A model generated the notes under the pieces. The model saw nothing but the letters and a program-made list of their open reading frames with translations. It did not search any database and was not told the origin of the DNA. Shown piece by piece: positions 5,552-29,301 of a stretch of 64,000 nucleotides of DNA. Every line of letters starts with the position of its first letter. Positions within the stretch are counted from its first letter, which is position 1. Origin of the DNA: Teichococcus deserti (GTDB lineage Bacteria; Pseudomonadota; Alphaproteobacteria; Acetobacterales; Acetobacteraceae); the NCBI RefSeq assembly GCF_001982615.1, contig NZ_MLCO01000090.1:1-64000 (forward strand). Reading direction: 5' to 3'. The position numbers were made by a program, and so were the translations under genes.

Positions 5552-7456
5552 CTAGGACAACGCAGCGGATCTGTTCTCTCTGGCTTGCACCAATGCCTCG
5601 GTACGGCACAGCGCTACCAGTTCCCGCAGCGAGGTAACGATCGTTTCCCCCGTGCCATCTCTCCGCAGTTCTGCCAGCATCGTACTGTCGGTACCGGCAT
5701 GCCACAGGCCGATCACCACGCGCGCCTTAGGCAACTGCCGTTGCAGCCGACGCGCCAGGTAGCGGATGCCGTCTGCAGTATTGCCTTCTTCTAACACTGA
5801 CAAGCAGCAGAGCCCCGCGTTGGCGGCTATTGCCTCTTCCGGTAGGGCGCCCTCAGCCAAACTGGCAACTCCGAAGCCCTCTTCTCGCATCGCCTGTGAC
5901 GCCATGCCAGCTGCCAAGTCGTCCAGGCTGCCGCGCCCCGCTGCGCAGACAATGCGTGGCGGTGTGTTGGGCGCTGCAGGCTCCAGCGCCAGCAGCAATC
6001 CCTGAATCTGCCCACGCACATCCTCCAGCTGGGAAGGTTCCAATACCTCGCGTGCCCAGTCCTGATCTGCCAGCGACAGGGCGGTGAGGGCCACCGTGTC
6101 ATGGTAACCGGCCAAGGTGCTGCCGCGTCGCAGCGCCTGCTGCGCCTGCTGAAGCAGCCCGCGGGCGTCGCGTTGCAGGCTTCGCTGGTAGAAGCTCTCA
6201 TGCGGCAGCAGGGATGGCCGGTCCCCTAACATCACCTCCAGGAAGGAAAGCTTCGGAACATGCCGTCCCAGTACCACCAGCACCACCGTAAGCGGCGTGG
6301 CCAATAGCAAGCCGATCGGTCCCCACATGAACGTCCAGAAGGTGGCGGCAATAATCACCGCCACAGGGGAGAGCCCCGTGCTATGACCGTAAACGGCAGG
6401 TTCCAGTACCTGCACCATCAGCGGCTCGGCAACCAGGAATAGCGCGAGCACCCAGATGGCCATGGACCAGCCTGGGTCCACTGCCACAGCCAGCAGCAAT
6501 GTTGGGATCAGTGCGACGAAGGTGCCGATAAACGGCACAAAACGCATCAGCCCAGCTAGAATGCCCCAGAGCGCCGGGCTGGGGAGCCCGATCCACCATA
6601 AGGCCAGCCCGATCACCAGTCCCATCGCAGAATTTAGCGCCACCTGCGCGAGAAACAGGCGGGACAGGCGCCGCGCAGCGTCATTCAGCGCCACAGTCGT
6701 GCGGTGCAGATCACGCGAGCCGGCGAGACGGATGACGCGATCGCGTAGGTCCTCCCGGTAGATCAGGATGAAGATCGCGAAGAGCACGACGACCGCGGCA
6801 GTGGCCAGCGGCGCCAGGACGGGCCCGGCGACGCTTTGGATCACCTCCAGCGGCGTGGTGCCGCCGCCGACCGGCGCTGCCGTGGTCTCGCGCAGCGGCA
6901 GCGACGGGGCAGAATAGGCCGCGGTGCGCCCCGACATGCCGTCACCCACCATCTGCCGGAGGTTCTGCAGGGCGGCTTCGGCATCCCGCATCAGCTCGGC
7001 AACATGCAGCGACTGCAGCTTGGTCGTCAGGGTGCGCTGGTAGGCGGCGAGATCCACCACCAGCGTGCCAGCCTGCCGCGCCATCACCATGCCAAGGCCG
7101 AGGATCGCCCCTGCCGCCGTCAGCACCGCCAGCACCACGGCCAGGACCTGCGGCACTCGGAGGCGGCTCAGTGCCACGACGATCGGCGCCAGGACGAAGG
7201 CCAGCAGCACCGCGAGCACCAGCGGGACGATGAGGTCGCGTCCGAGGGCCAGGGCAGCAATGGCCAGGGCCCCCGCCAGCAGACCGAAGATAGCGTTGAG
7301 CACGCCGAGCGCCGAAGGGCCAGCGTGCTCAATCTCCCGGGCGACGCCTTGCAGGCGGTCGGTGGCCTTTTCGCCGCGCAAGGCGATATCCTCCAAAAGC
7401 CCGGGTAACGCCGCAGGAAGCGGAAAGTTAGCCGGTTCAACAACCCTTCGTGACAT
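5552..7456 (-). CDS. AI-2E family transporter with a C-terminal cytosolic domain
   Basis: A 634-residue polytopic membrane protein of the AI-2E/PerM exporter family. The first membrane segments are [20 protein letters not shown] and [19 protein letters not shown]. The family signature follows, with [24 protein letters not shown]-like helices, [20 protein letters not shown] and [20 protein letters not shown]. After the last helix (about residue 415) comes a soluble region of some 200 residues ending in a Rossmann-like block ([20 protein letters not shown], then VVIGLWHAG). The chosen ATG at 7456 leaves a short divergent intergenic region with the kinase gene. An upstream extension would run into that gene. 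Substrate unknown. Confidence 0.85.
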
Positions 7457-20058: not shown

Positions 20059-20334
20059 TCAGCCAGCCTTACGCTTCGGCGCGGCCTTCCGCAGAGCCGC
20101 GTTCACCTTGCTCTGCCAGCCGGGTCCGGTTTCCCGGAATGCCTGCAGCACGTCCTGGTCGATGCGCAGGCTGACGAGTTGCTTGGTGACCGCCAGCTTT
20201 GGCCGGCCGCGCCGCACCACCTTATCGCCCTCGCGGATCTCTGCGCGCGCCATCCACTCGGCGGTTAGCTCCGGCGCATCATCAGGGTCCATCCAGGTAG
20301 ATGCGCCAGCCACGGACTTCTTTGTCATGGGCAT
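20059..20334 (-). CDS. brnA: BrnA family antitoxin
   Basis: A 91-residue antitoxin of the BrnT/BrnA type II toxin-antitoxin system. It has DAPELTAEWMARAEIREGDK and a C-terminal ribbon-helix-helix (KQLVSLRIDQDVLQAFRETG, then GWQSKVNAALRKA), which binds DNA and autoregulates the operon. Its start lies within the end of the toxin gene (53-base overlap), the usual order for this family. Met at 20334 or 20328 is possible. Confidence 0.92.
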   Translation of the reverse strand: MPMTKKSVAGASTWMDPDDAPELTAEWMARAEIREGDKVVRRGRPKLAVTKQLVSLRIDQDVLQAFRETGPGWQSKVNAALRKAAPKRKAG

Positions 20335-20563
20335 GCCTCATGGAAATGATGCGGCGGGCCACGCCGCGTGGTGTCCAGACGATGACGACCAGGCGCTCGC
20401 CCAACATGCCGGCGCTGATGAAGCGCGGCTCTCCATAGTCCTTGCGGTCATCTGGCAGGGTGGCATGCCGGCCTGCGAAGACCTCCTTGGCATCGGCGAA
20501 ATCCAGACCCCGCTCGCGCAGGGTCATATCTCGCTTTTCGCGGTTGAAGGTGATCCTCATCAA
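20282..20563 (-). CDS. brnT: BrnT family toxin
   Basis: A 93-residue BrnT-like toxin, which in the characterised family is an RNase fold. Motifs include ERGLDFADAKEVFAG, DDRKDYGEPRFISAGMLGER, LVVIVWTPRGVARRIISMRHA and the final EVRGWRIYLD. It is the first gene of the pair and overlaps the antitoxin gene. The pair is complete and looks functional. Confidence 0.92.
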   Translation of the reverse strand: MMRITFNREKRDMTLRERGLDFADAKEVFAGRHATLPDDRKDYGEPRFISAGMLGERLVVIVWTPRGVARRIISMRHAHDKEVRGWRIYLDGP

Positions 20564-21723: not shown

Positions 21724-22317
21724 CTATGCAGTCACCTCCAGCAGGCCCAGCCGCGCCGCTGCCGCGCGCAGCCAGGCTGGATCAGGCGGTTCAGTCGGCG
21801 CCGGCAGCGCCGCTCTCTGCCATTCTTCCTCCTGGATCTTATCTTCAGAAGCTGAGGCTGACCGGAAGCCGGTATCGCTCGGCGGCGCCCAGTGCGCCGG
21901 CGCCCGGAACAGGTAGGCGCTGGTCACCTGGCACCACCGGCGCCCCACCACCAGGCCTCGGCGGATCCGCAGCAGAATGCCGGCGGCCTCGAGGCGGTCG
22001 AGCGCCTCCTGCACCGTGGAGCGCGCCAAGGCGGCCGCCTCCGCGATCTGGGTAATGGCAGGGTCGCAGGCGCCGGCGCGCCCCCAGCCGCGGTAGAGCA
22101 GCGCCCAGAGCACGCGCAGGCCGGTCTGCCGCAGTTCGCCGCCGTGACGGCCGCTGCCCGGCTGCCGTGTCATACGCTCGCGCCGCCGCGCGGCGTCCAT
22201 GAGCCGCACGCGGTCAGCATGGCCGAGCCGCTGCCGCTGCCAGCTCGCGACAGCGACCGAGCCCCGCCGCGCAGGCGCAAAGATTCGGATGGGCATGGCG
22301 ATCTGCCAGCCCAGCAC
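21724..22317 (-). CDS. Helix-turn-helix protein, replication-initiator-like
   Basis: About 190 residues with one clear winged helix-turn-helix (ITQIAEAAALARSTVQEALD then RLEAAGILLRIRRGLV). The N-terminus is Arg-rich and the tail acidic. Proteins of this look are common next to ParA genes on plasmids of acetic acid bacteria and are often called replication proteins, but that role is inferred. It lies upstream of and divergent from parA. The start could be at 22317 or 22296. Confidence 0.6.
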   Translation of the reverse strand: MLGWQIAMPIRIFAPARRGSVAVASWQRQRLGHADRVRLMDAARRRERMTRQPGSGRHGGELRQTGLRVLWALLYRGWGRAGACDPAITQIAEAAALARSTVQEALDRLEAAGILLRIRRGLVVGRRWCQVTSAYLFRAPAHWAPPSDTGFRSASASEDKIQEEEWQRAALPAPTEPPDPAWLRAAAARLGLLEVTA

Positions 22318-22564: not shown

Positions 22565-22656
22565 GTCGACATGTAGCCATGTTGGTGTGTAGACACGCTA
22601 TTGACGCCTGAGGCAACATGTCTTCATGTATGAGTGTCGACATGTTGGAGTGAAGA
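22565..22656. repeat. Partition-site repeats, cluster 1 (upstream of parA)
   Basis: Copies and variants of a GACATGT core: GTCGACATGT at 22565, GTGTAGACAC at 22587, AACATGTCTTC at 22615, GTGTCGACATGTT at 22634. They occupy the parA promoter and ribosome-binding region. The same core recurs at 23271, 23579, 23910 and 24331, framing the parA/parB-like pair. They are probably centromere sites and autoregulatory operators for the ribbon-helix-helix protein. Confidence 0.65.
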
Positions 22657-22657
22657 C

Positions 22658-23308
22658 ATGCATGTGATGGCAATCATGAGCCAGAAGGGCGGCGCCGGAA
22701 AATCTACTTTGGCGGTCCACCTAGCAACCGAGGCAACGACGCGCGGCCTGAAGACGCTGCTGCTGGATCTCGACCCACAAGGCAACCTGACCAGCTGGGC
22801 CCAGCGCCGCGGCGACGCGGCGCCGGATGTCGAGGCTATCCACGCCTCGAACCTGGGCAAGACGCTGAAGGAAGCGCGGGCGGAGGGCTACGACCTCGCC
22901 CTGATTGACACGGCCCCGAATGCTGATCGCACTACCATGCTGGTGGCCCAAGCGGCCGACCTGGTGGTCAGCCCTTGCCAGCCGGCGCAGTTCGATCTCG
23001 ACGCGCTGAACGCAACCGTTGACCTATGCTTGGGCTTGAAGCGCCCGGTTGTGGTGGTGATCAACGCCGCCCCGCCCAGAGAAAATTCGAGCGTCGTGGC
23101 TGATGCCGTGGCGGTGGTGCGGGAGACCGGGGCGGACGTCTCCAGCGCCGTTATCGCCTACCGCGTTGCCCTGCGACACTGCCTAGCCGAAGGCAAAACG
23201 GCAGCCGAGTACGAGCCTGGCGGCAAGGCCGCGCAGGAAATCAGCAGGCTTTATGACGACATGTTGGCGCGTCTACATGTCGACACGTCGACCAAGGGTG
23301 TCATGTAA
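22658..23308 (+). CDS. parA: ParA family partition ATPase
   Basis: A 216-residue Walker-type ATPase for plasmid segregation. The deviant Walker A is QKGGAGKSTLAVHLA near the N-terminus, then LLLDLDPQGNLTSW, then the Walker B region YDLALIDTAPNAD. There is no N-terminal helix-turn-helix, so it is the short type Ib form that works with a small non-canonical ParB. ATG 22658 has GGAG upstream. Its stop overlaps the next ATG (TAATG). The 3' end itself contains repeat copies. Confidence 0.93.
   Translation: MHVMAIMSQKGGAGKSTLAVHLATEATTRGLKTLLLDLDPQGNLTSWAQRRGDAAPDVEAIHASNLGKTLKEARAEGYDLALIDTAPNADRTTMLVAQAADLVVSPCQPAQFDLDALNATVDLCLGLKRPVVVVINAAPPRENSSVVADAVAVVRETGADVSSAVIAYRVALRHCLAEGKTAAEYEPGGKAAQEISRLYDDMLARLHVDTSTKGVM
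23271..23293. repeat. Partition-site repeats, cluster 2 (within the 3' end of parA)
   Basis: GTCTACATGTCGACACGTCGACC reads as two or three overlapping half-sites of the same core as the other clusters. It is embedded in codons for the last residues of ParA, just before the small partner gene. Confidence 0.5.
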
Positions 23309-23574
23309 TGGCGCTTCGCACCCGCCCTAAGCTCAACTCTTTGCCCCGCCGGCCTGCCGGAGACGACCAGCCCGAGGCCGTAGCGAAGTCGGCCGTGCCT
23401 GCTTCACGGTTGGGCAAGAAGCAGGTCGCCTTTTTCGTGGACGGTGATACCAAGCGGCAGCTGGACCGTCTCGCTTTCGATGAGGAGAAGTCACTGCAGC
23501 AGGTGATGAATGAGGCGCTGAACCTGCTTTTCCAGTCTCGAGGGATGGCGCGAGTAGCTGATCAGCAGGACTGA
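23308..23574 (+). CDS. Ribbon-helix-helix plasmid partition protein (ParB-like)
   Basis: An 88-residue basic protein directly coupled to parA. The C-terminal ribbon-helix-helix is KKQVAFFVDGDTKRQLDRLA then SLQQVMNEALNLLF, and the N-terminus is disordered and basic (LRTRPKLNSLPRR). In type Ib systems such proteins bind centromere repeats next to the operon and contact ParA. The GACATGT repeats around it fit that role. Confidence 0.82.
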   Translation: MALRTRPKLNSLPRRPAGDDQPEAVAKSAVPASRLGKKQVAFFVDGDTKRQLDRLAFDEEKSLQQVMNEALNLLFQSRGMARVADQQD

Positions 23575-23614: not shown

Positions 23615-24573
23615 TAGATCTCTTCTCGCTCGCGTCGCAGGTCAGCAAAGTAAGCCGCCATATAGGCTGCCCTATGGTCGACGGCATCCCGCCAATCCTG
23701 TCCAGTGCAGGAAGCTGGCATAGTTGCGCTCCAGGTATAGGACACCGTGCCCTTAACGCGGCAGCGGCCCGGCGCAGCAGATAGCCAAGTAGACGCGCCC
23801 GTTTAGGGACAGCAATGCTGCTAGTTCGATGAGGCCCCGTCAGCGAAGGATCAGGTTTAGCCCAGTGGGCAGAGAGGCTTGTTTCACCGGGCTGCGCACT
23901 AACACTCATACATGTCGACATATAGACATGTCGGCATTTTAGCTCATGGTAAATTGGTTGCCAAACGGCGCCACGGCCGACAGTGGCACGCTGATGCCTC
24001 AGTGCCTCAGTGCCTCAGGGCCGCTTGGATCTGCTCTAGGCAGATCGACCATTCTTCGGGGATATCGAAGCGAGCGCGATTTTCCAGCAGGTCGCGCGGC
24101 AACCCCTGAAGATCGCTTGTCTGCGGAGCGCTACAGAGACGTCGGTTTGTCAGCTTCGTCTTCCATATAGCACCGCCTCCGTTATGCATCACGGGCCAGG
24201 TTTGCTTCTGTTAGCGCCGTTCGCCACGGCCGGGACGATCTGCCAGCAACATGGGCTCTGCGTCCACGACCTTCACCAAGTTGCCGCAAGCAGCCTCGTT
24301 CTCCTTGGCATCTTCATCGAAAGCATTAGCCGACACGTCGACACTGCCACACGTCGACCTACCAACATGTAGACATGTTATCATGTAGACATGTTGGGCG
24401 GCTTGGGGGGCAGCGGCGATGGAGGCGCGGGCTGCAGGTCATTGGCATTCTCGAGGATCAGCCTAGCTGGGGCGATCAAGTCTACGATCGAAGCCGCAGT
24501 ATTCATCGCGATGTAGCCAGTCGCCTCGGCGTTCGGCATGTGCCAGAGTCTGAATGGATGATTTATCTCCGGT
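23615..24573. other. Gene-poor stretch with further partition repeats
   Basis: No convincing complete gene. On the minus strand a frame ending near 23613 encodes a plausible 50-residue tail (VSYTWSATMPASCTGQDWRD then HRAAYMAAYFADLRREREEI) without a clear start. It may be a gene remnant. Two repeat clusters lie here. One is ACATGTCGAC-ATATAGACATGTCGGCA at 23910-23936. The other is ACACGTCGAC copies at 24332 and 24349 followed by CCAACATGT and ACATGTTGG arms at 24362-24397, which contain two direct copies of CATGTAGACATGTT 16 bases apart. Confidence 0.55.
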
Positions 24574-25353
24574 TCAATACTCAGGACGGTAGCTGCCAAC
24601 CACCAGTGCGGTGATTGCCAGATCGGCTTCTCCGGAGGCGTGACTGTAGTCTTCCTCTCCGCAGTCGATGGTCTGATCGACATCTTCGGCATCGTCCATG
24701 GCGACGCTCGGCGCAGAAAGAATGATCGGGTCCTGAAAGGCCGGATGAGCGCTGCGCGGCCAAAGCAGATGCCGCCCACGCTCGTCGACCTGGTACTCCT
24801 TCAGGGTGGCTTCAAAGCCAGCAGCGCCCCGGCGCTGCACCACCACGCGTTCGCCCGGCCGGGGCAGCCGCCCCAGATCGGTGTAGCGGATCACCACCAC
24901 CATGCTGCCGTTCGGGTAGACCTTGTCCATGGAATCGCCGCGCACCAGCAGGCCGTATTTCGGGATCCCAGGATAGCGGGGGTCTGCTGGCACGGTGATC
25001 GGGAACCACTCTTCTGACTGCCATTCCATGGCCTCACGCCAGACGCCGGCCTGCACATGGCTGCGAACCTGCACGGGCTCCATCGTCACGGGCCCAAGGC
25101 TGACCTCGGCCGGGGCAGGGGTGTCCGAGACGGCTGCTTCCAGGAAGTAGGCGGGCGGGACACCCAGCACGTCCGCCAGCCGCTTCAGGTTCTCGGGCTT
25201 GGGCGCGTGCTCCCGCGGCGGCTTCATGTGGCGGATGGTGTTCTCGCCCACGCCCGCCATCAGGCAGGCCTTCCGCTCGCTGAGCGGCCGGGTGGGCGTG
25301 CCCATGGCACGGAGGCGCTCATCGATCCGGGAAAGAAGCAGCTCGTATTTCAT
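24574..25353 (-). CDS. LexA/CI-like S24 family repressor-protease
   Basis: About 259 residues. The N-terminal helix-turn-helix (SERKACLMAGVGENTIRHMK and LKRLADVLGVPPAYFLEA) is followed by an S24 self-cleavage domain. That domain has the catalytic Ser in LLVRGDSMDKVYPNGSMVVV and a candidate catalytic Lys in FEATLKEYQVD. The cleavage-site region is likely in VRSHVQAGVWREA. Such proteins repress phage or plasmid genes and cleave themselves with RecA during DNA damage. It reads away from genes that carry GTTC-N7-GTTC SOS boxes. ATG 25353 (MKYELLLSR) is favoured over 25371. Confidence 0.88.
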   Translation of the reverse strand: MKYELLLSRIDERLRAMGTPTRPLSERKACLMAGVGENTIRHMKPPREHAPKPENLKRLADVLGVPPAYFLEAAVSDTPAPAEVSLGPVTMEPVQVRSHVQAGVWREAMEWQSEEWFPITVPADPRYPGIPKYGLLVRGDSMDKVYPNGSMVVVIRYTDLGRLPRPGERVVVQRRGAAGFEATLKEYQVDERGRHLLWPRSAHPAFQDPIILSAPSVAMDDAEDVDQTIDCGEEDYSHASGEADLAITALVVGSYRPEY

Positions 25354-25528
25354 GATAGTTGTAAAAATCACCTTGCCGGTATTCCGCGCTACTCCTATCG
25401 TCGCAGAGAAGGCAAGTCCAGCAGGAGCGGAGCAGCTCCAAGGTTCGAGGCTGGCGTTCCTTCATCCTCCGTGCAGCAGCCTCTGGAGCTCTTCTAACCA
25501 TGCCCCCTTCCTGTTGCGCCAGAGGTTT

Positions 25529-25543
25529 GTTCTCTATACGTTC
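25529..25543. promoter_or_regulatory. Alphaproteobacterial LexA (SOS) box
   Basis: GTTC-TCTATAC-GTTC matches the known alphaproteobacterial LexA box GTTC-N7-GTTC exactly. It lies 55 bases upstream of the plus-strand gene at 25598, in the divergent gap with the S24 repressor, so either gene could be controlled by it. Confidence 0.7.
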
Positions 25544-25597
25544 GGTTGAGGCTGTCCTCCTGGCGCCGCATCGGCCGGATGGAGAAGGCCGCCTTCC

Positions 25598-25972
25598 ATG
25601 ATGCTGCTGCAACGCTGCGGAACCGAGCCGCGGATGGAGAGCATCGGCTCTCCGAACGATCTCGCCTTGCTAACCGAACTCGCCCGGGGCGCTGGCTATC
25701 TGCTGGTGCCGGTGCAGCAGGGTAGGGCAGGGGATCTCCATGCCTGCCTGGCAGCCTGGTCGCAGGAGATCGATCAGACCAAGGCTCTGGCCTCAGAGGT
25801 GTTCGGCACCGGCAGGATCAGCGCCATGGATGCCGGTCACCTCGAGGCGCAGGTCAGAAGCCTGACCGAGAGCGGCAGGTCGCTGGCCGCCAGCCTCAGA
25901 ACCCAGCTGCAGTATGCCGGCTGGCGGGTGCGTCCCCCACGCAATGGCTGTCGGCCTGCCGCCGCGCTCTGA
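25598..25972 (+). CDS. Hypothetical protein behind an SOS box
   Basis: About 124 residues, or about 112 from a second ATG at 25634. No family is recognised. It is mainly helical (PNDLALLTELARGAGYLLVP, HLEAQVRSLTESGRSLAASL) with a Pro/Arg-rich end. It is the first plus-strand gene after the SOS box and sits in tandem with the next gene. Likely a plasmid or phage accessory protein. Confidence 0.5.
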   Translation: MMLLQRCGTEPRMESIGSPNDLALLTELARGAGYLLVPVQQGRAGDLHACLAAWSQEIDQTKALASEVFGTGRISAMDAGHLEAQVRSLTESGRSLAASLRTQLQYAGWRVRPPRNGCRPAAAL

Positions 25973-26017
25973 CCCCACCACCCCCCCCCGCTTGCTACCC
26001 AGGATCTGCTGAAAGCC

Positions 26018-27022
26018 ATGCCACGCCGCCCGACAGACCTGATCCAGGTCGCCATGTCCGATCCCCGCTTTCGCCTGCTCTCCTTCGCCGAGGTCGGCTT
26101 CTGGGTGCACCTGATGAACATGCTGCTGTCGGCGCCGGTGCGAGGTCAGCTGCAGTTCCCGGGTACGGCTTCGGTTCCCGCTTTGGTTTCCCGTTTGGTT
26201 TCCACGGCGGAACCCATGTCGGAAACCGAAGCGGAAACCCAACTGCAAACCTTCTGCGAGCTCGGGCTGATCGAGCTGGACGAAGCCAGCCGGACCATCT
26301 TCCTGGCCGGCGCGCGGGACACGTCGCGCCGCGCCGAAGCCGCCAGGATCAACGGCTTGAAGGGCGGCCGGCCGCGCAAAGGCGAGACGCTCGAGGAGCG
26401 GCGGGAACGCCGCCAGGGCTCCTTTATGCTGCCGATCCGGGGAGGGCTGGCGGAACCTCAGGAAACCGAAGCGGAACCGAACGGGGAAAGCTCGCGCGCG
26501 GTACTAACTACTACTACTAAACTTACTGGTAGTAGTAGCGCGCGCGAGGAAACCGAAGCGGCCGCGCTGGTGCAGGAGCTGACCGGGCTGGCGGGCTTCA
26601 GGCCGCGGATGCAGGGCAGGGAGCTGGAGATCGTCGCAGGCTGGCAGGCCGCCGGCGTCTCGGCCGAGGGCATGCGGGCGGTCGTGCAGGAGGTCGCCAA
26701 CCGCGCGAGCTACGACCCTGGCGTTGTGAAGACCCTGGGCTACTTCACGCCCGCCATGCACGAGGCCGCGGGGTTGGGCGCGCAGAGCCGCCAGGCCTCG
26801 GCAGCACCCCTGGTCTATAACCCGCCGCGTCCGCCGGCGGCCCAGCGGGATGCGCAGGGCTTTACCGCCGATGAGCGCAGCCGGATGGATGAGCTTCGGG
26901 CCATGGTCCGCGATGGTCTCCCCCGCGACAATCAGCGCCGCATCAACGCCGAGGGCATCATGCGGCACCTGTACCCGCACCTCTGGGACATCATGGCGGC
27001 GGAACTGGACCTGGCAGCCTGA
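26018..27022 (+). CDS. Plasmid/phage replication-like protein with internal repeats
   Basis: A 334-residue protein. The N-terminus (RRPTDLIQVAMSDPRFRLLS, FAEVGFWVHLMNMLLSAPVR) and the basic ARINGLKGGRPRKGETLEER resemble DnaT-like or replication-module proteins that read growth or gene state, but I cannot name it. The middle is disordered and built from ETEAE-like repeats. The C-terminus (QELTGLAGFRPRMQG, VQEVANRASYDPGVVKTLGY) is helical. Function unproven. The DNA encoding the middle contains three copies of a 14-base repeat and a 58-base stem-loop, which may be a replication or binding site inside the gene. Confidence 0.6.
   Translation: MPRRPTDLIQVAMSDPRFRLLSFAEVGFWVHLMNMLLSAPVRGQLQFPGTASVPALVSRLVSTAEPMSETEAETQLQTFCELGLIELDEASRTIFLAGARDTSRRAEAARINGLKGGRPRKGETLEERRERRQGSFMLPIRGGLAEPQETEAEPNGESSRAVLTTTTKLTGSSSAREETEAAALVQELTGLAGFRPRMQGRELEIVAGWQAAGVSAEGMRAVVQEVANRASYDPGVVKTLGYFTPAMHEAAGLGAQSRQASAAPLVYNPPRPPAAQRDAQGFTADERSRMDELRAMVRDGLPRDNQRRINAEGIMRHLYPHLWDIMAAELDLAA
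26168..26561. repeat. Gene-internal iterons and long stem-loop
   Basis: GGAAACCGAAGCGG occurs at 26221, 26461 and 26548 in the same orientation. A near-inverted copy, GCTTCGGTTCC, lies at 26168, and further GGTTTCC boxes are at 26185 and 26197. Between the second and third copies, CTCGCGCGCG (26491-26500) pairs with CGCGCGCGAG (26539-26548). Inner (CTA)3 and (TAG)3 arms make a long hairpin. The coding frame is kept open throughout. Possible plasmid origin or regulatory site. Confidence 0.55.
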
Positions 27023-27072
27023 CCTACATGCGACCGGAATAAATCCCGCATTAGTCCTCAAACAGCAAAATT

Positions 27073-27087
27073 GTTCTTTATTTGTTC
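27073..27087. promoter_or_regulatory. Alphaproteobacterial LexA (SOS) box
   Basis: GTTC-TTTATTT-GTTC matches the GTTC-N7-GTTC consensus exactly and has an AT-rich spacer. It sits 49 bases before the ATG at 27136, almost the same distance as in the box upstream of 25598. The gene has GGAGGGGAAGGAGG before its start. Confidence 0.75.
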
Positions 27088-27135
27088 CAGAAAGAGGCTA
27101 GATCCTGACCCTGATAGCTCAGGAGGGGAAGGAGG

Positions 27136-27903
27136 ATGGCCGCGCAAAGGAAAGTCGTTCAGAGGCGTGCTGAAGGAACTCTCGCCCAGGCACGTGCGGC
27201 GGGAGGCCAGCTGGTCCGGCTGACACGGACGCCGGTCTTTCCGCCGGCAAAGATCACGCACCGTCGGCCAGTCGAGCCAGATCCTGCCCCGCCGGATCCA
27301 GGGCGTATGGAACGGCTGGAGCAGCGGGCAGGATTGCTGATCCGCCAGGAGATCGCCCACGACCGCGCCGAGCGGCAGGCGCAGCAGCTGCAGCGCGCCC
27401 AGCAGCTCAGCAGGGGGGACCAGGCCGCAGGCATGTGCCGTAGAGCGGCTCAGGAGGGTCTGGAGGCGGTTCGGGACCGCGGGGCGGAGGGCAGGGCCAT
27501 GCTGGCGCGTCCTGCGGCCGTAGTGACCCTTCCAGGCGAAGCGGAAGACGTTCGCCGCATGCTCGACAGCAATCCGCTGACGGTGCTGGACCTCACGGCC
27601 CGACAGATGGAGGCAGCAGAGGTGCTGGCCAGCACCTATCGCGACGCCAGGCCGGCGATGGAGATGCCGAGGGGCTATGGCAACGGACATCGTGGTGGGC
27701 TGCGGCACCTCAGCCATGACGAGTATCTGGCGGCCCAGCGTGCCTGGCAGGACTACCGCAACTGGCTCGAGGTCGTCGTGAAGCGGCTCGGGCCGCAGCA
27801 TGCTGCATCGGTGCGAGATGCTGTGGTACTTCAGGAGCCAGCGCCGGCCTGGCGAGCACGGCAGGCGCTGGACACACTGGCCGCGTACTGGAAACTCCCA
27901 TAG
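27136..27903 (+). CDS. Hypothetical protein behind an SOS box
   Basis: 255 residues. The N-terminal half is basic and helical (QRKVVQRRAEGTLAQARAAG, then AERQAQQLQRAQQLSR). The C-terminal half (VLDLTARQMEAAEVLASTYR, GQ-free DYRNWLEVVVKRLG, and the final ALDTLAAYWKL) loosely follows DUF6456-like helical domains, which occur in alphaproteobacterial regulators and phage proteins. This is a pattern-level guess. A perfect Shine-Dalgarno (GGAGG) precedes the start. Likely induced by DNA damage. Confidence 0.6.
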   Translation: MAAQRKVVQRRAEGTLAQARAAGGQLVRLTRTPVFPPAKITHRRPVEPDPAPPDPGRMERLEQRAGLLIRQEIAHDRAERQAQQLQRAQQLSRGDQAAGMCRRAAQEGLEAVRDRGAEGRAMLARPAAVVTLPGEAEDVRRMLDSNPLTVLDLTARQMEAAEVLASTYRDARPAMEMPRGYGNGHRGGLRHLSHDEYLAAQRAWQDYRNWLEVVVKRLGPQHAASVRDAVVLQEPAPAWRARQALDTLAAYWKLP

Positions 27904-27937
27904 TGAACGTGCCTGATGCTTCGCCCCAATCTTCAAT

Positions 27938-27952
27938 GTTCAGCTTGTGTAC
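27938..27952. promoter_or_regulatory. Degenerate LexA box
   Basis: GTTC-AGCTTGT-GTAC differs from the GTTC-N7-GTTC consensus by one base. It is 29 bases before the ATG at 27982. Weaker than the two perfect boxes upstream, but in the same arrangement. Confidence 0.4.
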
Positions 27953-27981
27953 AGCTAACTTCGATTAAGGAGCCTCCATTG

Positions 27982-28368
27982 ATGGAGCTCGCATCTTTCC
28001 CTCGGGTCCCGCTTGTCGACCTGCGCCACGCTCCCGATGAGGAAAGTGGCTCGAAGCGGCCGCAGCCCTGCATGCCAGTCCTCATCGAGGAGCTGATTGC
28101 AAGCAGCGGCAAGCCCTACATTTCGGCCCAACTGCTCTCATCGCCGGATCTCTGCAGCCTTCTCGAGGACATGCGGATCGTGCCGCCGCGCACCCGAGCG
28201 CTGAAAGGCGTTCTGGAGGTCCTGGGATTTCGCCTGTTGGGTCGCGTCACCGTTGAGGGAACCCCACGCCGCTACTGGAGCCGCCAACCCGCCCTCTTTA
28301 TCCGGCCCAGTGGGCTGCCCGATATGAAGGCGATCCGACACTGGCATCTGACTGGACGTCAAGCCTAG
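27982..28368 (+). CDS. Hypothetical protein
   Basis: A 128-residue protein. The C-terminal part looks like a small winged-helix or DNA-binding-like fold (TRALKGVLEVLGFRLLGRVT then EGTPRRYWSRQPALF). The N-terminus is uncharacteristic (ELASFPRVPLVDLRHAPDEE). No family is recognised. TAAGGAG lies 9 bases before the ATG. Probably part of the accessory set controlled by the SOS boxes. Confidence 0.55.
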   Translation: MELASFPRVPLVDLRHAPDEESGSKRPQPCMPVLIEELIASSGKPYISAQLLSSPDLCSLLEDMRIVPPRTRALKGVLEVLGFRLLGRVTVEGTPRRYWSRQPALFIRPSGLPDMKAIRHWHLTGRQA

Positions 28369-28600
28369 CTCCGGCCGAATAACCCCAAACCCGGCGCGTT
28401 GCCATGCAGACAGTCAGCCAATGAGCTGATGGTGGAGAGTTATCGGGCGCTTGGTCCTGCTCGGCGCAGGTGCTTCAATCGCGCCCGACAAGCAGTTGCT
28501 GCTTGTTTACCCCGAGCAGATGCTCTGAAGCGCAGGATATTGCCGAAGAGAACGCCAATTGCTTAGAAGTTGACAATCGTACCGAGACAGGAATGCTCGC

Positions 28601-28644
28601 AAGGCAAGGCAAGGCAAGGCAAGGCAAGGCAAGGCAAGGCAAGG
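28601..28644. repeat. Pentanucleotide microsatellite (AAGGC)8
   Basis: Eight uninterrupted copies of AAGGC followed by AAGG. The array runs into AAGGAG (28641-28646), which is a good Shine-Dalgarno sequence for the ATG at 28656. Tract-length changes would alter spacing or frame of anything starting upstream. It is the only microsatellite of this size I see in the window. Confidence 0.85.
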
Positions 28645-28655
28645 AGCAGGGCAGC

Positions 28656-29301
28656 ATGTTGGAGAAGCTGAGCGATCCAGCGAATATTTATACATCGAAG
28701 CCGAACCAGCATGCGCTGAAGCTGATCGAAAGCCTGCTGCAGCATGAAGCTCATGCCAGTGCTCTGTGAGGTCGGCATCGGGGCAACCACGAGCGAGATC
28801 TGTCGCCTGCTCGCCAGCCGCCTCAACGATCTAAAGCCCGAGCTCGACGGCCTGGGCTTCAACAATGTCGTCTATCATGGCAATACCCAACGCAAGCCCG
28901 ACAGCTGTAACTGGGCGTTGGCGCAGATGCTGCTGACACGTCGTGCCGCTGGCGGAGAGGTACCACTATTTGATTTTGTCTTCCTCGACGGGGCCCATGC
29001 CTTCCACCACGGTGCGCCTGCGACCCTGATCCTGAAGGAGCTGCTGAAGCCCGGCGGCGTCATCCTCTTCGATGACTACGATTGGTCCTTCGCTATCTCG
29101 CCAACCATGAACCCTGCGGTCTTCCCCGCCATCCTGGAGGCCTATAGCGAGGAGCAGATCAAGACGCCGCATGTTCGGCTGATCTGCGACCTCTTCATGG
29201 ATGGCGACCCGGAGTACCGCAAACTGGATATCGGCTACGGCCCGCGCGAGCATCGCCGCGCCTACCGCAAGCGCGCCCCGGGCGATGCCGCTGCGGCATG
29301 A
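28656..29301 (+). pseudogene. Class I SAM methyltransferase, frameshifted
   Basis: From ATG 28656 the frame reads LEKLSDPANIYTSKPNQHAL and ends with a TGA near 28769. A second frame from 28744 carries on with VLCEVGIGATTSEICRLLAS (the glycine-rich SAM loop) and then FDFVFLDGAHAFHHGAPATL and LKPGGVILFDDYDWSFAIS. The two parts together look like one glycan-cluster methyltransferase with a frame change at about 28760. Relative to the family, the segment between LLAS and LNDLKPEL seems shortened and lacks the usual acidic ribose-binding strand end, so the gene may be inactive. It overlaps the next gene (ATGA) and lies behind the microsatellite. Confidence 0.6.

Follow-up and report, generated by a model that had tools for sequence, protein, structure and literature searches.

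Host LexA can act directly on the genes of a phage: in the temperate phage GIL01 it represses the early (replication) genes (partial text of PMC6182141), and a general scheme of LexA control over phage genes is available with PSOSP (partial text of PMC12527982). The motif to be expected in an alphaproteobacterium is known from Caulobacter, where the LexA consensus is GTTCN7GTTC and about 97% of the promoters concerned have one LexA box each (partial text of PMC12700426). Here we describe two exact copies of this motif, box 1 and box 2, in a stretch of 64,000 nucleotides from Teichococcus deserti (contig NZ_MLCO01000090.1, positions 1 to 64,000), referred to as the window. It is part of an 86,611-base contig (C588) of a 6.25-Mb draft genome in 597 contigs, and the host is Roseomonas-like. 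Box 1 precedes genes for a CII-like protein and for a probable phage-type replication initiator (REP), and box 2 precedes a gene of a prophage family (27136 gene, after its start); a gene for an S24 (CI/LexA-type) repressor adjoins box 1. Judged from its sequence, this set of genes looks like an early region such as phages or phage-plasmids have. We assign a probability of about 0.72 to the reading, drawn from sequence comparison, that chromosomal LexA uses both boxes as operators in the early region of a module derived from a phage-plasmid.

The motif was compared with the LexA-controlled genes of the genus. The lexA gene was located in 16 of 17 genus genomes (the miss being G015, which is 71% complete) and recA in all 17, and exactly one exact box was present at each of these 16 lexA and 17 recA loci; in the genome under study, the boxes read GTTCTACGAAAGTTC at lexA (contig C321) and GTTCGCTATATGTTC at recA (contig C94). 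By this comparison GTTC-N7-GTTC is the LexA box of this host, as a first-pass annotation of the window, made from the letters alone, had stated for Alphaproteobacteria in general. Box 1 differs in a single base from the recA box of G006. Both copies placed by that annotation at 25529 and 27073 proved to be exact matches on the plus strand, and its figure of about 50 bases to the next ATG was correct, with 54 bases between box 1 and the ATG at 25598 and 48 bases between box 2 and the ATG at 27136; a different reading frame has an ATG nearer to box 1, at 25579.

Exact matches were counted in the window, in shuffled sequences, and in the genome. Specifically, three exact sites occur in the window (25529, 27073, and 52926) versus 0.69 expected, a number reached by 0 of 100 shuffles. 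Genome-wide, there are 65 exact sites versus 43 for a reversed control pattern; many single exact sites are therefore attributable to chance, and the exactness of a match is, by itself, little evidence. The two intergenic regions total 357 bases, for which the control rate predicts approximately 0.0025 sites; two were observed, these regions having been picked post hoc. For the class of sites with up to one mismatch, the 34 in the window (3 exact and 31 with one mismatch) compare with a shuffle mean of 25.7 (standard deviation, 5.3), and 7 of 100 shuffles reach 34. This wider class is not above chance. The surroundings of all 65 exact genome sites were read, and 32 of them were scored as intergenic by a rough gene caller based on G+C content at third codon positions (GC3); on the same rough scoring, 15 of the 19 sites with at least five A/T in the spacer are intergenic, as are 17 of the remaining 46, which speaks for the two boxes, whose spacers are A/T-rich. 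A further copy at 27938, which the first-pass annotation had added with one mismatch, is present on the plus strand and was rejected as a third box, since its class does not exceed chance and the site is absent from the second cassette copy described below.

This second copy is located on contig C24, which carries window positions 24572 to 28384 at 91.9% DNA identity. There, box 1 retains both GTTC halves with one change in the spacer, and box 2 is identical in 15 of 15 bases. The ratios of nonsynonymous to synonymous substitution rates (dN/dS) between the two copies are 0.05 for the S24 repressor, 0.09 for REP, 0.10 for the 27136 protein, 0.20 for a 128-residue protein encoded downstream, and 0.52 for the CII-like protein. 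To these come more diverged relatives. Fourteen REP loci outside the genome under study, of the 44 listed there, were read in addition to its own three. Among the cassettes read, five of the genus have matches to both CII and REP (on C588, C24, C8, G007:C59, and G007:C106). Each of them has an exact box somewhere between the start of the repressor gene (its initial 60 bases counted in) and the CII gene; on C8 and in the two G007 cassettes, a short XRE protein that lacks an S24 domain serves as the repressor. Of two genus REP loci without a CII match, G004 has three boxes, one of them before a small open reading frame (ORF) and a DnaE2-like ORF, and G014 has none.

Several observations weigh against an operator function of the two boxes. 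As the window and C24 share about 89% identity across the two intergenic regions, the comparison of the boxes has low power, and their retention is support rather than proof. The cassettes of C8, G007:C59, and G007:C106 have their box within the XRE gene, 11 to 60 bases from its start and at varying places, and approximately 530, 1,230, and 410 bases before CII, respectively, so that homologous siting is not established. Outside the genus, none of three loci with CII and REP (G449, G402, and G262) has an exact box in the interval between repressor and CII, the exact box of G449 being situated beyond the repressor gene. The 27136-type gene of C8 has no close exact box, the nearest lying 594 bases upstream inside the REP gene. 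No sigma-70-like promoters or terminators were found in 24000 to 28700, no virion genes were noticed in the window's ORF list (the window not having been scanned whole), and the CII-like gene is, by its sequence, perhaps decaying. The GC3 caller, finally, places box 2 inside an opposite-strand ORF overlapping the 27136 gene and scores the C8 site at 6404 as intergenic though it lies within an XRE gene; both rows were left unaltered in the count of A/T-rich spacers.

These points have to be considered together with three other explanations. Chromosomal LexA is a likelier ligand of the boxes than the S24 protein, and binding of the GTTC direct repeats by the latter instead of LexA appears distinctly unlikely. 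It would fit the habit of phage repressors, which usually bind their own divergent promoters: the S24 gene does adjoin the boxes, as the first-pass annotation had stated, and is divergent from box 1, and in G085 (L069) an exact box precedes an S24 homologue by 59 bases. However, the motif is the same as at lexA and recA, the three cassettes with XRE-only repressors have boxes as well, and of the 13 S24-homologue loci read (among 19 listed outside the genome under study), 7 are without any exact box and 6 have at least one. Equally, we regard it as improbable that the boxes are products of chance or functionless relics in a decaying phage remnant. The modest genome-wide excess over the control pattern, the relaxed CII gene, the loss of the 27938 site in C24, and the lack of noticed virion genes would all suit such a remnant, whereas the occurrence of two sites within so few intergenic bases, the preservation of both in C24, and the low dN/dS of the S24, REP, and 27136 genes would not.

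Somewhat less remote, though still unlikely, is an arrangement in which LexA acts on box 2 for a stand-alone SOS gene, the 27136 gene, and REP is made mainly from an S24-controlled promoter, leaving replication itself outside LexA control. Box 2 is the fully conserved one and has the more A/T-rich spacer, and the gene behind box 1 is the degenerate CII; against this stand the conserved halves of box 1 and its near identity to a recA box.

If both boxes are indeed LexA operators, LexA would, in the undamaged cell, hold down the CII-REP genes through box 1 and the 27136 gene through box 2, and the module's S24 repressor would be expected to act at other operators of its own. After damage, RecA filaments would stimulate self-cleavage of LexA and probably of the S24 protein too, given the conserved active site of the latter. 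Both repressors would thereby be lifted and REP and the 27136 protein made, and REP would start replication, possibly at an origin that its gene contains. Of this chain, we infer LexA binding, repression, the initiator role of REP, the origin, S24 cleavage, and induction. More tentatively, and with the odds against it, the module might constitute a two-lock SOS switch, with host LexA on the initiator genes and a self-cleaving S24 repressor on the same module, both of which RecA must clear to release replication from the origin in the initiator gene; modules of the genus would then keep SOS control by LexA boxes whatever their type of repressor.

Table 1. Boxes, genes, and other features discussed in the text. 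Positions refer to the window unless a locus (L) is given.
Feature	Position	Strand	Remarks
BrnT-BrnA toxin-antitoxin pair	20059..20563	-	PF04365 and PF14384 above cut-off
Second winged-helix, O-like initiator	21724..22317	-	phrog_391 replication initiation O-like, 2.9e-6 (weak)
ParA-type partition ATPase	22634..23308	+	Pfam AAA_31 and CbiA above cut-off; NF041546 160.2 bits, below cut-off of 180
Ribbon-helix-helix protein after ParA	23308..23574	+	PF20605 45.8 vs 27.2
S24 (CI/LexA-type) repressor, 259 residues	24574..25353	-	PF00717 33.7 bits vs cut-off 23.3; phrog_4 transcriptional repressor
LexA box 1	25529..25543	+	GTTCTCTATACGTTC; exact; before CII-REP genes
CII-like protein	25598..25972	+	phrog_101 CII-like, 5.4e-6; lacks N-terminal part of C8 homologue
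REP, probable replication initiator of phage type (replisome organizer), 334 residues	26018..27022	+	Model and viral-model matches
Candidate origin inside REP	26185..26569	+	GGAAACC repeats and long inverted repeat at ~26490-26550
LexA box 2	27073..27087	+	GTTCTTTATTTGTTC; exact; before 27136 gene; spacer 7/7 A/T
27136 protein, prophage family, 255 residues	27136..27903	+	Homologues in G007 and G014 before terminase-like ORFs
One-mismatch site	27938..27952	+	Probably chance
128-residue protein, fast evolving	27982..28368	+	75% DNA identity in C24
Third exact window box	52926		GTTCGATGGTAGTTC; 86 bases before doubtful ORF; without support
Small ORF with upstream box	L010 1631-1951	-	
Small ORF with upstream box	L008 1604-1957	-	
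Small ORF with upstream box	L013 2143-2430	+	
Small ORF with upstream box	L003 2108-2401	+	

In the S24 repressor, A102-G103, S141, and K185 are invariant in 9 of 9 aligned sequences (itself and the C24 copy included); the roles of the Ala-Gly site, the Ser, and the Lys are established for the S24 family. For a possible N-terminal helix-turn-helix (HTH), HTH_3 gives 17.4 bits, under the cut-off of 23, and phmmer gave one HTH-domain chain at E = 0.0018. A search for its operator returned several short inverted repeats, none of them convincing. A relative with 39% identity over half its length is encoded on the Agrobacterium plasmid pAtCFBP5507b together with terminase, portal, and ParA genes; no close relatives of the S24 protein or of REP were confirmed in viral contigs. 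Two observations were made near other S24 genes: a 46-kb plasmid of Methylobacterium currus with an S24 relative has type I-E CRISPR-associated genes (L076 137-6323), and in G047 (L070 11571-11698), about 3.7 kb from an S24 gene, GTTC recurs every 11 bases, so that exact boxes, six in all and overlapping, result on both strands. The CII homologue on C8 passes Pfam Phage_CP76 (35.5 vs a cut-off of 26).

The predicted structure of REP features a winged helix (residues 5 to 113) and a helical part (residues 173 to 250), with a mean predicted local distance difference test (pLDDT) value of 68 and a predicted TM-score (pTM) of 0.37 (six sequences). Against viral models, entries with replisome-organizer names appear from E = 0.0031, with low TM-scores of 0.2 to 0.3, the three best matches (E of about 5e-5) being unnamed or uncharacterised. 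REP has no Pfam match, a Foldseek search of PDB with it gave nothing at E = 0.001 or better, and tblastn against phages found no match. The PDB rows obtained (VIA) are generic winged helices of many functions (Z of 7.4 to 8.9), and the two plasmid-initiator-type entries among them tie with unrelated ones. Matches to REP occur in 39 of 397 family genomes, its own included, many of them partial, and in Neoroseomonas alba and at two other loci the REP gene follows a DnaB-like ORF. From this modelling, REP is probably a replication initiator of phage type.

An origin situated within an initiator gene has a precedent in lambda O. The inverted-repeat region within REP is a sequence-based candidate for such an origin: the inverted repeat is present in all six REP genes folded (those of the window and the C24 copy and four at 39 to 45% protein identity), although it is irregular in L192 and reduced to its outer stem in N. 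alba, and it was not found in the REP-type gene of C8. Among five sequences, C24 being left out, codons for the same residue are identical in 148 of 180 comparisons in the candidate stretch versus 784 of 1,331 overall; 13 of 2,000 column shuffles reach the best window, the stretch having been picked after the repeats had been seen. Exact boxes also occur within REP-type genes, namely two overlapping ones 11 bases apart on C8 (L002 4810-4835) and one in L193 at 4895.

Relatives of the 27136 protein were found in 4 of 145 genomes, its own included. Three homologues in G007 and G014 precede terminase-like ORFs, two of them in company of an HNH-like ORF, and this position alone suggests a role as a late regulator. 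The protein has no Pfam match above cut-off and no PHROG or NCBIfam match, and tblastn against plasmids gave no match; its structure model was poor (mean pLDDT, 46) and was not used. A suspected likeness to DUF6456 was dropped after Pfam scans of the protein and its relatives gave no such match. The 128-residue protein following it matches no Pfam, PHROG, or NCBIfam family. A short tandem AAGGC run lies right after the block, at 28596 to 28645.

The assignment of the genes to phage or plasmid DNA in the first-pass annotation is supported. Besides the window, C24 and C8 carry the O-like gene, which no Pfam family matches above cut-off; it perhaps encodes an initiator that serves stable maintenance. 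Contig C8 (33 kb) combines ParA-type, CII, REP-type, and 27136-type genes with a gene for a tail tape measure protein and with UmuD-like and UmuC-like ORFs, the UmuD call being a weak LexA-family match and UmuC having been named by eye. Besides a terminase small subunit gene and a primase gene, G011:C17 carries a 27136 relative that is partial and contains one internal TAG. The ParA, ribbon-helix-helix, O-like, and BrnT-BrnA genes beside the block, along with the phage genes of C8 and G011:C17, suggest that it belongs to a family of phage-plasmid-like elements. Note that the ImuA-like and DnaE2-like ORFs (L032 and L193), a topoisomerase at C102, the DnaB-like ORFs (L198, L205, and L207), and the HNH and terminase-like ORFs (L029 to L031) were likewise named by eye.

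Further exact boxes were encountered along the way. On C8 (L002 10088-12184), one stands before a small ORF that is followed by the UmuD-like and UmuC-like ORFs; C591 has a small ORF resembling this one, likewise with a box. A group of four related small ORFs (the last four rows of Table 1), of which three are cysteine-rich, has an exact box 55 to 67 bases upstream of each member; a Pfam scan of two of the four gave no match, and the group may be a family of SOS small proteins in this genome that has no name yet. Other boxes of the same genome (L171 1566, L009 2049 and 2102, L015 2005, and L004 2050) lie by genes for a D12-class DNA adenine methylase, a radical SAM protein, and an AAA/M41 peptidase and by the start of an XRE-S24 gene. 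At two prophage-like genus loci (L029 4127 and L031 2622), an exact box starts exactly 38 bases before similar ORFs of 102 and 92 residues, for which Pfam gave no match.

Under the proposed arrangement, a probable replication initiator encoded on accessory DNA would be linked to the SOS response of the host, in a module that has a close second copy and several diverged versions within the genus. If this holds, such elements would respond to DNA damage with a higher copy number or with mobilisation, and the recurrent boxes of the genus offer a concrete, testable case of mobile elements using the damage sensor of their host. No paper on this cassette turned up, which does not prove that there is none. 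One parallel is the rstA promoter of the CTX phage, where LexA and a phage repressor together control a replication gene; unlike here, this is a filamentous phage of a gammaproteobacterium. The Caulobacter LexA regulon, as far as the partial text of PMC12700426 describes it, shares the motif and the single box per promoter, which here stands on a phage-derived replication cassette. GIL01 is without a dedicated phage repressor and uses gp7 (partial text of PMC6182141), whereas the present module has its S24 repressor. In the phage-plasmid N15, the LexA-regulated gene is an antirepressor (partial text of PMC11652158), whereas here a box precedes a probable initiator. An alphaproteobacterial phage-plasmid of Tritonibacter (Roseobacter) resembles our locus in its C1-type repressor, parAB, and toxin-antitoxin genes; it differs in that LexA or SOS is not mentioned in the main text of PMC10090143, as far as that text was available. 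Since GIL01 and N15 already provide cases of phage and phage-plasmid genes under LexA control, the cassette is best seen as a believable further example and not as a new strategy.

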